Assembly: GCF_018271995.1 (NCBI RefSeq)
Contig: NZ_JAGUCO010000001.1
Span: 1 to 64,000, forward strand
DNA length: 64,000 bases
Reading direction: 5' to 3'
From: Carboxylicivirga linearis
Lineage (GTDB): Bacteria; Bacteroidota; Bacteroidia; Bacteroidales; Marinilabiliaceae
How positions within the stretch are numbered: the first letter of the stretch is position 1; each line of letters begins with the position of its first letter. The position numbers and the translations under genes were made by a program. Under the pieces are notes generated by a model. It did no database searches. It was not told where the DNA came from and saw only the letters and a program-made list of their open reading frames with translations. This document shows positions 1 through 57,150 of the stretch, in pieces.

Positions 1-149
1 AACAACACCTTAAGAGTGGTTATTAACACCTTTAGATAGTCTAACAATACCTCCAGTCTGCTTGTCAACACCTTTTGTAAGTGTGATAATATCTTTAGAT
101 AATACAATAATTTCTTAAGAGTAGATAAAAACACCTTAAGACCATTCAT
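1..149 (-). CDS. Possible partial ORF of leucine heptads (array-encoded)
   Basis: From an ATG at 149-147 the minus strand stays open to the window edge for 49 codons. The predicted peptide is a run of heptads of the form LKVLxxx (LKVFLST, LKKLLYY, LKILSHL, QKVLTSR, LEVLLDY, LKVLITT). Leucine or another aliphatic residue at heptad positions 1 and 4 would suit an amphipathic helix or coiled coil. An in-frame TAA lies upstream at 173-171 and no clear ribosome binding site is seen. The openness could be a by-product of a stop-free 21-base repeat, so coding status is uncertain. The related array at 56318-56570 carries stops in the equivalent frame, which argues for caution. Confidence 0.3.
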   Translation of the reverse strand, partial: MNGLKVFLSTLKKLLYYLKILSHLQKVLTSRLEVLLDYLKVLITTLKVL

Positions 150-158
150 CAACAAAAA
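1..158. repeat. 21-bp periodic degenerate tandem array, cut by left edge
   Basis: On the + strand a conserved AACACCTTwAGA-like half-unit starts at 4, 25, 46, 67, 88, 109, 130 and 151. All seven intervals are exactly 21 bases. The other 9-10 bases of each unit vary freely. The array appears to continue beyond the left edge. The minus strand is open in one frame and reads as leucine-rich heptads (see the partial ORF entry). The period also equals two turns of B-DNA, so a non-coding, helically phased role is an alternative. A second array with the same period but a different core lies at 56318-56570. Confidence 0.75.
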
Positions 159-561
159 AATATTATTAACTTATGTGGTTTTTCTCTTTCAGAAGGCTAT
201 AACCATACATTATTACGATAGGGTTGCTTAGTACAAAGGTGTTAATGTCTATATAATTAAGAATAATTATAAATTATATATGATATTGTATTAATTTATG
301 TAATTGATACTATTGATATTTATCTGATCGCATCCCTTTGTATCTGTTAAATAGTAAGCAATACGATAGATTTCAGTCACTATCAAATTTATTCTTAATC
401 AAACAAAATGCTGTTACTCACGCTCACTATTAGTATTCTGTTACTACATATTAATTTATTATATTCAAATAACATTTTAGCCCCCTGATCCCCGGAAATT
501 CTTTCCGCGCCTCACCGTTAACGCAACTATGTAAGATCTAATTCTTTCAAAACTTACTTTT
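150..561. other. Intergenic AT-rich spacer
   Basis: About 410 bases between the periodic array and the first gene. It is very AT-rich, apart from a short GC-rich patch near 480-525. I see no open reading frame, RNA gene or clear hairpin here, and no clear TAnnTTTG box close to the downstream start. Confidence 0.5.
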
Positions 562-1215
562 ATGAAGATTAACTTTGGATTCTCTATTGCCGAACTGCTG
601 CAACGCAACGATAAGTTACTAATAGTAATAAAACGTGATGCAGAACAATTTAAAGGTTATGGTTCGGGCAATGAATTACCAGAAAAAATGGCCACTTTGG
701 GGTCTTCCCTCAAAGAAATGCCATCTAATGATTACTACGAAGGAGAGCAAAAACTACTTACCAATCAAAAAGCAGAAATACGATTGGCACTTGAGAATGA
801 TATAAACGATTTGCGAAATCGTGTACGTCTAACCTACGGTTCTAAATCGGTAGAATATGATATTTTCCGGTTTGGTCGAATTCATCAACTAAGCGATAAC
901 GAGTTGGTACAGCACGCTTTGCACGTTGTTAAAACAGCAGAGCCTCGTTTAGACAAACTGTCGGGCCGTCAGGTTACGCAAAGCTTGCTTGATTCAATTT
1001 TAGGTAACCGAACGTTATTAGATGATATTATTGATAAGCAAAGCATTGCTATGTCCTTGCGTAGCGAAAAATCGCTTGAACGTAAAACGCTGGCAAATGA
1101 ACTATACGGCCTCATTAGTGAGGCCTGCGACATTGGAAAACTGATATGGCAAGAAAAAAAACGAAGCCTATTACACCGACTATGTCATTTATGGTTCGTC
1201 GAAATCAATAGCTGA
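562..1215 (+). CDS. Hypothetical protein, C-terminus frameshifted at an A8 run
   Basis: A 217-residue soluble protein with no signal peptide or membrane segment. It is mostly helical and rich in charged residues. I do not recognise a functional domain; the sequence resembles a Bacteroidota-specific family of uncharacterised proteins (impression only). After residue ~198 the frame changes at eight adenines (1154-1161). If one A is skipped, the reading continues as KNEAYYTDYVIYGSSKS and ends in an acidic tail at the TAA at 1247-1249, giving about 228 residues. That alternative tail looks more natural than the annotated ending (RSLLHRLCHLWFVEINS). The gene is therefore either slightly broken, affected by a homopolymer read error, or read by slippage. 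It ends just before a terminator hairpin. Confidence 0.6.
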   Translation: MKINFGFSIAELLQRNDKLLIVIKRDAEQFKGYGSGNELPEKMATLGSSLKEMPSNDYYEGEQKLLTNQKAEIRLALENDINDLRNRVRLTYGSKSVEYDIFRFGRIHQLSDNELVQHALHVVKTAEPRLDKLSGRQVTQSLLDSILGNRTLLDDIIDKQSIAMSLRSEKSLERKTLANELYGLISEACDIGKLIWQEKKRSLLHRLCHLWFVEINS

Positions 1216-55187: not shown

Positions 55188-56222
55188 ATGAAAATATTAT
55201 ACGCAATACAAGGAACAGGAAATGGTCACATGGCTCGCGCCTATGAAGTTATTCCTGAGTTAAAAAAATATGGTGAAGTTGATATACTGGTTAGTGGTAC
55301 ACAAACCGACATTGAATTGCCATGGCCTGTAAAATACAGATATCATGGTATGGGTTTTATTTTTGGAAAAAATGGAGGTGTCGATTTAAGAGAATCGATA
55401 AAGAAAACCCGTCTTTTCACTTTCTTGAAAGAAGTATTTTCAGTACCCATACACCGGTATAACCTGGTTATAAATGATTTTGAACCTGTATCGGCATGGG
55501 CTTGTAAACTAAGAGGTAAAAGATGTATTGGTTTAAGCCACCAAAGTGCGGTTCTTCATGCTGATGCCCCCAAACCTATTGAAAAAGATAATATAGGTAA
55601 GAACATTCTTAAGTATTATGCACCGGCAAATTTTAATTATGGATTTCATTTTAATAGTATAGCTGATAACATTTCAACTCCGGTTATAAGGAGTGATATT
55701 AGAATTGCAGTTAAAAAGAACCTTGGTCATTATACTGTGTACTTACCTTCCTATTCTGATGAAAAAATTATTGCTGTGTTATCAAAAGTACCCTATATAA
55801 AATGGCATGTATTTTCGAAGCATAATACACAACCAAAAGAAATTGGAAACATTACGATTCAACCTGTAAACAAAGCCAAATTTACAGAGAGTTTTTTAAC
55901 ATGTACCGGAATATTATGCAATGCCGGATTTGAAACACCTGCTGAAGCGTTATATATGGGAAAAAAGCTTTGTGTTATTCCTATGAAAGGTCAGTATGAG
56001 CAACAATGTAATTCTGCCTTTTTGGGTAGCATGGGAATTAAAACATTGACTGATTTTGAATCTGGAATTGAAGGAATAAACGAATGGGTGTTTTTTGAGA
56101 ATGCCGTTTCTGTTCATTATCCAAATAATTTGCCTGGAGTAATTGATGATTTAATGGCTCGATTTACAACACAATACGAACCTATGCCAGAAATGGCGAT
56201 TAGTAGTCAGTTTAAAATTTAA
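55188..56222 (+). CDS. GT28-like/MJ1255-type glycosyltransferase
   Basis: 344 residues. N-terminal MKILYAIQGTGNGHMARAYEVI is the glycine-rich donor-site loop of MurG-like (GT-B) transferases. CRISPR-unrelated motif blocks include VINDFEPVSAWACKLRGKR, GLSHQSAVL and the C-terminal sugar-nucleotide region CNAGFETPAEALYMGKKLCVIPMKGQYEQQCNS. The family (sometimes called MJ1255/VC2487) has an unknown acceptor. Second gene after the metallophosphoesterase; probably acts on a membrane lipid or an exported glycan. Confidence 0.85.
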   Translation: MKILYAIQGTGNGHMARAYEVIPELKKYGEVDILVSGTQTDIELPWPVKYRYHGMGFIFGKNGGVDLRESIKKTRLFTFLKEVFSVPIHRYNLVINDFEPVSAWACKLRGKRCIGLSHQSAVLHADAPKPIEKDNIGKNILKYYAPANFNYGFHFNSIADNISTPVIRSDIRIAVKKNLGHYTVYLPSYSDEKIIAVLSKVPYIKWHVFSKHNTQPKEIGNITIQPVNKAKFTESFLTCTGILCNAGFETPAEALYMGKKLCVIPMKGQYEQQCNSAFLGSMGIKTLTDFESGIEGINEWVFFENAVSVHYPNNLPGVIDDLMARFTTQYEPMPEMAISSQFKI

Positions 56223-56317
56223 TCTGTATGCTTATCTCAGATTGGAGTTTAATGTGTGTGGGCACCTCTGTTGAATTATAGGTACTTAAAGTATAGAATT
56301 CTAATAAGTCATCTTAT

Positions 56318-56570
56318 CAATTAATGTTGTGTGTCCTACAATTGATTCTGTTTATGTCGCAGTTAATGATAGTAGACGAATAGTTATAATAATATTTAAA
56401 AGTTAATTTTGTTGATCATACAATAGATTTGATTACATCAACAATTAATATTAACAGTTCCACAATAAGTTTTACTGTTTGATCAATTATTCATACCTGC
56501 TCCACAATAAATAGTACGATATCCGCAATTAATGTTATTCATTAATCAATTACATCTGTTTAAAATCTGA
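56318..56570. repeat. Second 21-bp periodic degenerate tandem array
   Basis: A CAATT(A)AT-like core starts at 56318, 56339, 56360, 56381, ~56400, 56421, 56442, 56463, 56484, 56505, 56526 and 56547. All but one or two intervals are exactly 21 bases. The rest of each unit varies. On the minus strand one frame reads as short aliphatic heptads (LIVELLI, LIVDVIK) but is broken by stop codons. It lies in the 418-base gap between convergent genes. The same period but a different core is found at 1-158. Bases 56600-56641 hold a separate ~10-base TCTAAT repeat. Confidence 0.75.
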
Positions 56571-56640
56571 ATCAATAGTTTGATTTTAAGGATTGAAAAT
56601 TAGTCTGATGGTCTAATGATCTACTAATCTATAAGTCTAA

Positions 56641-57150
56641 TTACACGCAATCGAATCGACCTGCACTTTTTAGATTCACATATGAAAAAGTAAAGCCGGA
56701 TTTCTCATCATGTAAATTATCTTCTCTATGAGTTTCTTTCCATCCTAAGCCTTTATATTCAGGAAAGAACACATCAACATTATCAAAGGTATGATGAATT
56801 TGAGTGATGTAAAGTTCATCGGCTTCTGGCAGAAATGCTTTGTAAACTTCACCCCCACCAATTACAAACACCTTCTGGTCATCACTACAAATGGCTATTG
56901 CCTCACCTATCGATTTTACCACTTCTGCTCCAGGTGCCTTGTAGTCTTTCTGATGTGTAATAACGATGTTTCTACGCTTAGGCAACGCACCTTTTGGGAG
57001 TGCTTCAAAGGTTTTTCTACCCATTAAAATGGTGTGACCTGTTGTTAACTCTTTAAATCTTTTTAGATCTGAAGAGATATAAGCTAGTTGATCACCGTCT
57101 TTCCCAATACCGTTCTGTTCATCAACGGCAACAATCATTGCTAAAATCAT
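56641..57150 (-). CDS. folA: Dihydrofolate reductase
   Basis: 169 residues, NADPH-dependent reduction of dihydrofolate to tetrahydrofolate. Motifs: [20 protein letters not shown] (family start), [35 protein letters not shown] and the C-terminal [12 protein letters not shown]. In the substrate-binding region the usual W of LPWxxP is replaced by [12 protein letters not shown]. Its ATG overlaps the thyA stop by 4 bases (ATGA), so it is translationally coupled. It supplies cofactor for thymidylate synthase. Confidence 0.96.

Follow-up and report, generated by a model that had tools for sequence, protein, structure and literature searches.

A dispersed class of 21-bp repeat arrays in Carboxylicivirga linearis and its possible link to PQLLE-family genes

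Plasmid iterons, which work with Rep proteins, and partition arrays, which work with ParR, consist of direct repeats about two helical turns apart. The protein that binds these repeats is encoded downstream of them, and the two diverge together. Direct repeats of the LytTR type are 9-bp boxes placed 21 bp apart from center to center. Bacteroidales, to which Carboxylicivirga linearis belongs, also include Porphyromonas gingivalis. In P. gingivalis the BrickBuilt elements are described (PMC4596501) as always intergenic, present in many copies, and built of imperfect direct repeats; the unit is 23 nt long, and the copies form one sequence family with a leader, a tail, and inverted-repeat ends. 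BldC of Streptomyces is a small MerR-like protein. It is reported (PMC5859096) to bind cooperatively, head to tail, to direct repeats that vary in number, with AATT in the half-site and sites one helical turn apart. The SPADE survey mentions, in general terms, many unexplained interspaced periodic repeats in prokaryotes (PMC6344855).

The DNA analyzed here, referred to as the window, is a stretch of 64,000 nucleotides at the start of a 780-kb contig in the 6.05-Mb genome of the marine bacterium C. linearis (G000). Its two arrays of 21-bp repeats, arrays 1 and 2, are listed in Table 1. BrickBuilt is the nearest described element found for them. Like BrickBuilt, the arrays are intergenic, exist in multiple copies as families, and have both conserved and non-conserved sites in the unit. 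Unlike BrickBuilt, they have a unit of 21 bp, many unrelated cores, and a link to a protein family, and no inverted ends were found. Like iterons and ParR sites, the arrays are direct repeats two helical turns apart and lie upstream of one gene family (at 9 of 9 PQLLE-like genes), although array 2 itself does not. They differ from iterons and ParR sites in being chromosomal, in having many copies without a gene, and in that the partner protein matches neither Rep, ParR, nor any other replication or partition family in Pfam or NCBIfam. BldC resembles the binding proposed below in its cooperative direct-repeat mode, but its sites are one turn apart and those of the arrays are two. LytTR boxes were rejected as an identity for the cores, which fit the LytTR consensus no better than column-permuted arrays do in 17 of 18 arrays (p = 0.48 for array 2). 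LytTR genes number 23 in G000 and 10-28 in the genus, and they are equally many in relatives without these array families.

Table 1. Features of the two array loci in the window
Feature	Position	Strand	Remarks
Array 1	1..168	+	Core AACACCTTWAGA; seven clear 21-bp units (1-147), then a weak eighth; the contig begins inside the array
PQLLE-superfamily gene (217 aa)	562..1215	+	Downstream of array 1; family membership comes only from the profile built here; without an above-cut-off match in Pfam or NCBIfam
Glycosyltransferase gene (PF13528)	55188..56222	+	Left neighbor of array 2; family match
Acyltransferase gene, first codons (probable remnant)	56228..56252	+	G001 and G006 carry an acyltransferase gene after the glycosyltransferase gene
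Array 2	56309..56572	+	Twelve degenerate 21-bp units; core consensus ACAATTAAT; cores about 12 bp apart; one 19-bp step
Dihydrofolate reductase gene folA (PF00186)	56641..57150	-	Right neighbor of array 2; convergent with the glycosyltransferase gene

A preliminary description of array 2 counted twelve AATT-centered cores, nearly all of them 21 bases apart. Both the number of units and the spacing hold. The C of the core is found at 56318, 56339, 56360, 56381, 56400, 56421, 56442, 56463, 56484, 56505, 56526, and 56547; ten of the eleven steps are exactly 21 bp and the remaining one is 19 bp. The motif is looser than claimed, however, with a literal AATT in only 6 of the 12 units, AGTT in three, and AATA in three; one A column and one T column of the core are unchanged in all twelve. 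At unit separations of 1 to 7, identity is 0.57-0.70 in the core and 0.31-0.45 in the spacer, where 0.30 is expected. The column identity of array 2 at period 21 (0.366) lies above all 1000 dinucleotide shuffles (0.308 +/- 0.012, maximum 0.348), so that the proposed comparison with shuffled sequence favors a real array; at all other periods from 15 to 30, column identity is 0.28-0.325. Each of the six frames of array 2 contains 6-12 stops, including the frame equivalent to that of array 1, for which stops had been claimed. It had also been argued that the period is kept without coding, and array 2 is indeed non-coding with its period retained. Tandem Repeats Finder (minimum score 30) reports neither array 1 nor array 2. 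Relatives of array 2 in 13 other genomes of the genus do not go beyond short, chance-like matches (best E 0.014 over 30 bp), and no second copy of it was found.

The placement of array 2 between convergent genes agrees with what had been noted. In G006 and G002, the glycosyltransferase gene is followed by an acyltransferase gene and then by folA, as judged from the start of the acyltransferase gene and its distance to folA. In G001, which represents a related species, folA is about 50 kb away, and the acyltransferase has Acyltransf_2 and GNAT domains. In the window, array 2 occupies the gap between the putative first codons of the acyltransferase gene and folA, and the profile described below recognizes no PQLLE-family gene beside it. 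With only the apparent start of the acyltransferase gene left, the gap filled by the array, and no family gene recognized next to it, array 2 is thus an orphan that marks a site of deletion or rearrangement.

Array 1 has a copy at the end of another contig, C148. Through the array the two differ only by a single 21-nt deletion, C148 being the shorter, and their divergence starts about 40 bp past the last clear unit. With near-identical copies at two contig ends (window 1-188 and the final 217 bases of C148), this repeated element is probably where the assembly was interrupted. A run of A is found at 1154-1161, near the end of the gene at 562, and family-like C-terminal sequence may continue out of frame beyond it.

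The preliminary description suggested that elements of one period but with unrelated cores recur in this genome, and proposed autocorrelation at lag 21 as the way to find them. In 1.36 Mb of G000, lags from 7 to 63 were scanned and loci were counted at a fixed cut-off. Lag 21 gave 14 loci (2 within the window and 12 outside), lags 42 and 63 gave 11 and 6, and lags that are not multiples of 21 gave 0-3 each. The cores of the 14 loci differ, as suggested. If the sample is fair, the density of about 10 per Mb corresponds to roughly 62 arrays per G000 genome. The lag scan misses short arrays; in 200 kb of G004, a genome of the same genus, it found no lag-21 array at a cut-off of 0.43, yet one exists at L253:10366-10545. 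In G021, of the same family, no lag-21 array was found in the 200 kb scanned. By simple ORF calls, the arrays are intergenic, in convergent, tandem, and divergent gaps (6 of 13 are in convergent or divergent gaps). The exceptions are two arrays that overlap short ORFs (73 and 95 aa) and L099, which touches the start of its neighbor; the left neighbor of array 1 is off the contig.

Core sequences vary from array to array, and several recur at two to six places across G000 and G001. Among 71 genomes of the family, the L083-type array was found in two, G000 and G001. The arrays range in age from young, such as L316 with 27 units and a mean pairwise identity of 0.80, to old (0.36-0.5), and block duplications of several units are visible in L015 and L279. 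Arrays L018 and L098 are better conserved than their flanks; L092, L099, and L100 lie in regions conserved throughout, which weakens the idea that the arrays are exceptionally conserved. Outside the arrays, the cores are not clearly enriched as single sites. Three of ten families are just above the largest of 12 permuted controls (24 vs 21, 148 vs 147, and 4 vs 3), and in this they are unlike an ordinary regulon. The Bacteroidetes promoter consensus has no match in the 14 arrays (0.27 expected). The arrays, being degenerate 21-bp units, also lack the identical repeats and longer unique spacers of CRISPR. No relatives of the L316 array or the L333 protein were found in plasmids or phages, and no Rfam match was found in L015.

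Several other repeats were seen during the survey. Among 80 loci scanned, nine gave lag-21 hits, of which six were viewed and one, L194, is a clear 21-bp array; the other three also score at lag 7. In L160, L163, and L145, the lag-21 signal accompanies lag 7 and represents heptamer repeats, a separate class. Stretches with a 22-bp period are found at L009:13464, L028:1617, and L010:1058, the L028 stretch having several near-exact 22-bp units. At L074:7730-7960 and L194:13764-14050, the core changes strand midway, making the array symmetrical. L316, L320, and L322 (G001, 2.84-2.92 Mb) are three young, near-identical arrays with common flanks, and a different array of 42-bp units (core TCAGGATAG) at L322:2855-3259 is preceded by a leader similar to theirs. 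Parts of L015 (2384-3924 and 15951-20000) are 96-99% identical to L226, where the aligned DNA of this species pair averages 78%.

The array period is better kept than the array sequence. Between G000 and G001, the alignments of six orthologous arrays, seven stretches in all, cover 1427 bases with 126 mismatches and 5 gaps. Three of the five gaps are exactly 21 nt and two are 1 nt. The 63 other intergenic regions compared have 2051 mismatches and 316 gaps. Gaps that are not whole units are thus 2 in the arrays, against 19.4 expected (Poisson 8e-7). As the G000 arrays were selected for regularity, the calculation was repeated with half of the mismatches counted, giving 0.0035. Core columns change somewhat less than spacer columns (32/448 vs 86/728, p = 0.009) when the core is defined from the other units of the array; a simpler test gives 22/478 vs 95/696 and is partly circular. 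Within single arrays, the column contrast reaches p <= 0.02 against a coalescent null in 3 of 21. Several orthologous arrays also hold their position between the two species.

Some arrays lie just upstream of genes for one protein family. The NCBIfam model NF052641 ("PQLLE family protein") matches the proteins of L327, L332, and L333, whose arrays represent two families, with E 3.5e-47 to 5.3e-69 and above its curated cut-off of 80 bits. The L253 protein of G004 (E 3.5e-10, 39.9 bits) and the protein next to the L194 array in a Bacteroidales MAG (E 5.2e-4, 19.8 bits) match the same model under this cut-off. The G004 gene was first noticed by protein similarity and the 21-bp array was then found upstream of it, with a signal of 0.464 against a 99th percentile of 0.42 in random G004 windows. 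A first profile was built from these five seeds and searched against 4954 ORFs from the loci. Its best three non-seed matches are array-flanked genes at L015, at array 1 of the window (as the identical copy L062), and at L226, beside the G001 ortholog of the L015 array, with E 4e-4 to 1e-3; the next match has E 0.11. In leave-one-out profiles, the left-out seed always ranks first and the three non-seed genes rank 2-4 in four of five runs; without L194, the genes at L015, 562, and L226 have E 0.27-1.1 and rank 5, 4, and 10. Since one of three shuffled-seed controls reached E 0.009, the rank order weighs more than single E-values. A profile of eight sequences adds L337 (E 9e-4), which is also beside an array. 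Note that the genes at window 562, L015, L226, and L337 belong to the family only via the profiles built here. Two-sequence BLASTP does not join the 562 protein to that of L194 (E 31), and the comparison of profiles of the two small protein groups gives a weak result.

In eight of these genes, the array signal is 0.49-0.81 upstream and 0.34-0.40 downstream (reference of 983 ORFs: 95th percentile 0.405, 99th 0.495). For all nine PQLLE-like genes, which come from three Carboxylicivirga genomes and one other Bacteroidales MAG, the strongest upstream lag among 15-31 is 21 (0.51-0.86); four of them (L327, L332, L333, and L337) were fetched by array similarity, four (L015, L226, window array 1, and L194) came via the lag scan, and L253 alone is free of array-based selection. 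The core sequence differs between divergent PQLLE-like proteins. In G000, 2 of the 14 arrays (L015 and array 1) have a PQLLE gene beside them. Two other arrays, L099 and L070, follow genes for different proteins (221 and 158 aa), which are not picked up by the profile (E 5.4 and 69). It had been asked whether the arrays sit near genes like the one at 562. That gene belongs to the array-linked family, but array 2 has no recognized family gene.

Eight array-side proteins gave no Pfam match above cut-off, and therefore no known DNA-binding domain is seen in them. Matches in PHROGs, PADLOC, and PDB sequences are weak and none is convincing, and neither the PQLLE-type proteins nor the L070 protein has relatives in viral contigs. 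The predicted structures of two family proteins contain helices only, with a mean pLDDT (36.5 and 39.5) too low for use; that the family is helical is a guess from these models.

The reading we prefer is that array 2 belongs, as an orphan, to a class of phased arrays found genome-wide, that these arrays are rows of putative binding sites, and that a PQLLE-type protein is the candidate binder; we give it a probability of roughly 0.48. With sites spaced by two turns, many copies of a DNA-binding protein would line up along the same face of the helix. A row of this kind would need its two-turn spacing to be protected, its cores to change slowly, and its spacers to be freer, as observed. PQLLE-superfamily proteins would be the best candidates for the binder because their genes are just downstream of arrays, each divergent protein has its own core, and gene-less arrays are scattered in the genome; both the binding and the identity of the binder are what we infer from this arrangement. 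The complex may serve in autoregulation of the gene, or in marking and tethering sites of the chromosome. Several results speak against this reading: the absence of a recognized DNA-binding domain in the eight array-side proteins, a PQLLE gene beside only 2 of 14 G000 arrays, the placement of L099 and L070 by other proteins, near-control counts of single cores, a mostly non-significant column contrast within single arrays, and borderline E-values for some family members.

The evidence has to be weighed against other accounts of the arrays. They might be neutral minisatellites without any use, with units that are copied by slippage or unequal exchange and later decay. The age range from L316 to the oldest arrays, the multi-unit duplications in L015 and L279, and the whole-unit gains and losses are all expected of minisatellites. 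A single period, the strong depletion of off-register gaps, cores slower than spacers, and a fixed place 5' of one protein family are not, and this account appears rather unlikely. A non-autonomous mobile element of the MITE or BrickBuilt type that carries a minisatellite would explain the dispersed array families and the common array and tail of about 40 bp, followed by divergence, in array 1 and its C148 copy, and the 23-nt, multi-copy, intergenic BrickBuilt of P. gingivalis (PMC4596501) offers a precedent. Yet terminal inverted repeats reach p < 0.05 in 0 of 16 arrays, the unrelated cores are many, and several orthologous arrays stay put between species, which makes such an element improbable. 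An equally doubtful account places the function in RNA: the PQLLE transcript would begin with a repetitive leader made of the array, bound or processed every 21 nt. In 9 of 9 genes the array is on the 5' side, which would fit this account; however, RNA does not require a strict 21-base register, 6 of 13 arrays are in convergent or divergent gaps, and folding goes beyond z -3 relative to column-permuted copies in 2 of 15 arrays only (the palindromic L074 and L098).

The two remaining accounts are weaker still. The preliminary description predicted intrinsically curved DNA from AATT tracts phased every two turns. While 21 bp does equal two helical turns and 6 of 17 arrays reach the 90th percentile of predicted bend or more, the class averages percentile 0.52 against the genome, with a wide spread, and 0.43 against column-permuted arrays (n = 17; dinucleotide wedge model). 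Ranked among genome windows of similar GC, array 2 itself comes at the 16th percentile and L023 and L316 at the bottom, and the prediction is not supported; curvature is a very unlikely basis for the class. That the arrays are decayed coding repeats, or a decayed gene ortholog, is scarcely credible. The divisibility of 21 by 3, one open frame in 7 of 21 arrays, a sum of best-frame stops of 52 against 68 in shuffles, and the likely start of a lost acyltransferase gene before array 2 speak for it, but the stops in every frame of array 2 refute it there, and past the first codons array 2 has no convincing alignment to the acyltransferase regions of G001, G006, and G002. A decayed ortholog of a known gene, which had been named as a possible account of array 2, is thus not what the array is; the putative acyltransferase codons precede it.

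Beyond the binding-site reading preferred for array 2, it may tentatively be proposed that the arrays and the PQLLE genes form one undescribed two-part system of Bacteroidota, in which a fast-diverging protein and its co-diverging, two-turn-locked sites would be paired and the sites would also spread as gene-less arrays such as array 2. In the open-license literature, searched by title or the start of the abstract, no account of such arrays or of a PQLLE-array link was found, and this is weak evidence of absence. The arrays represent a class of intergenic DNA that Tandem Repeats Finder misses. A spacing that stays constant as the bases change is a direct sign that helix geometry matters. Through its pairing with arrays, the PQLLE family, so far named by a motif alone, would gain a first role open to testing, and the joint change of protein and site could be read from many independent protein-array pairs.
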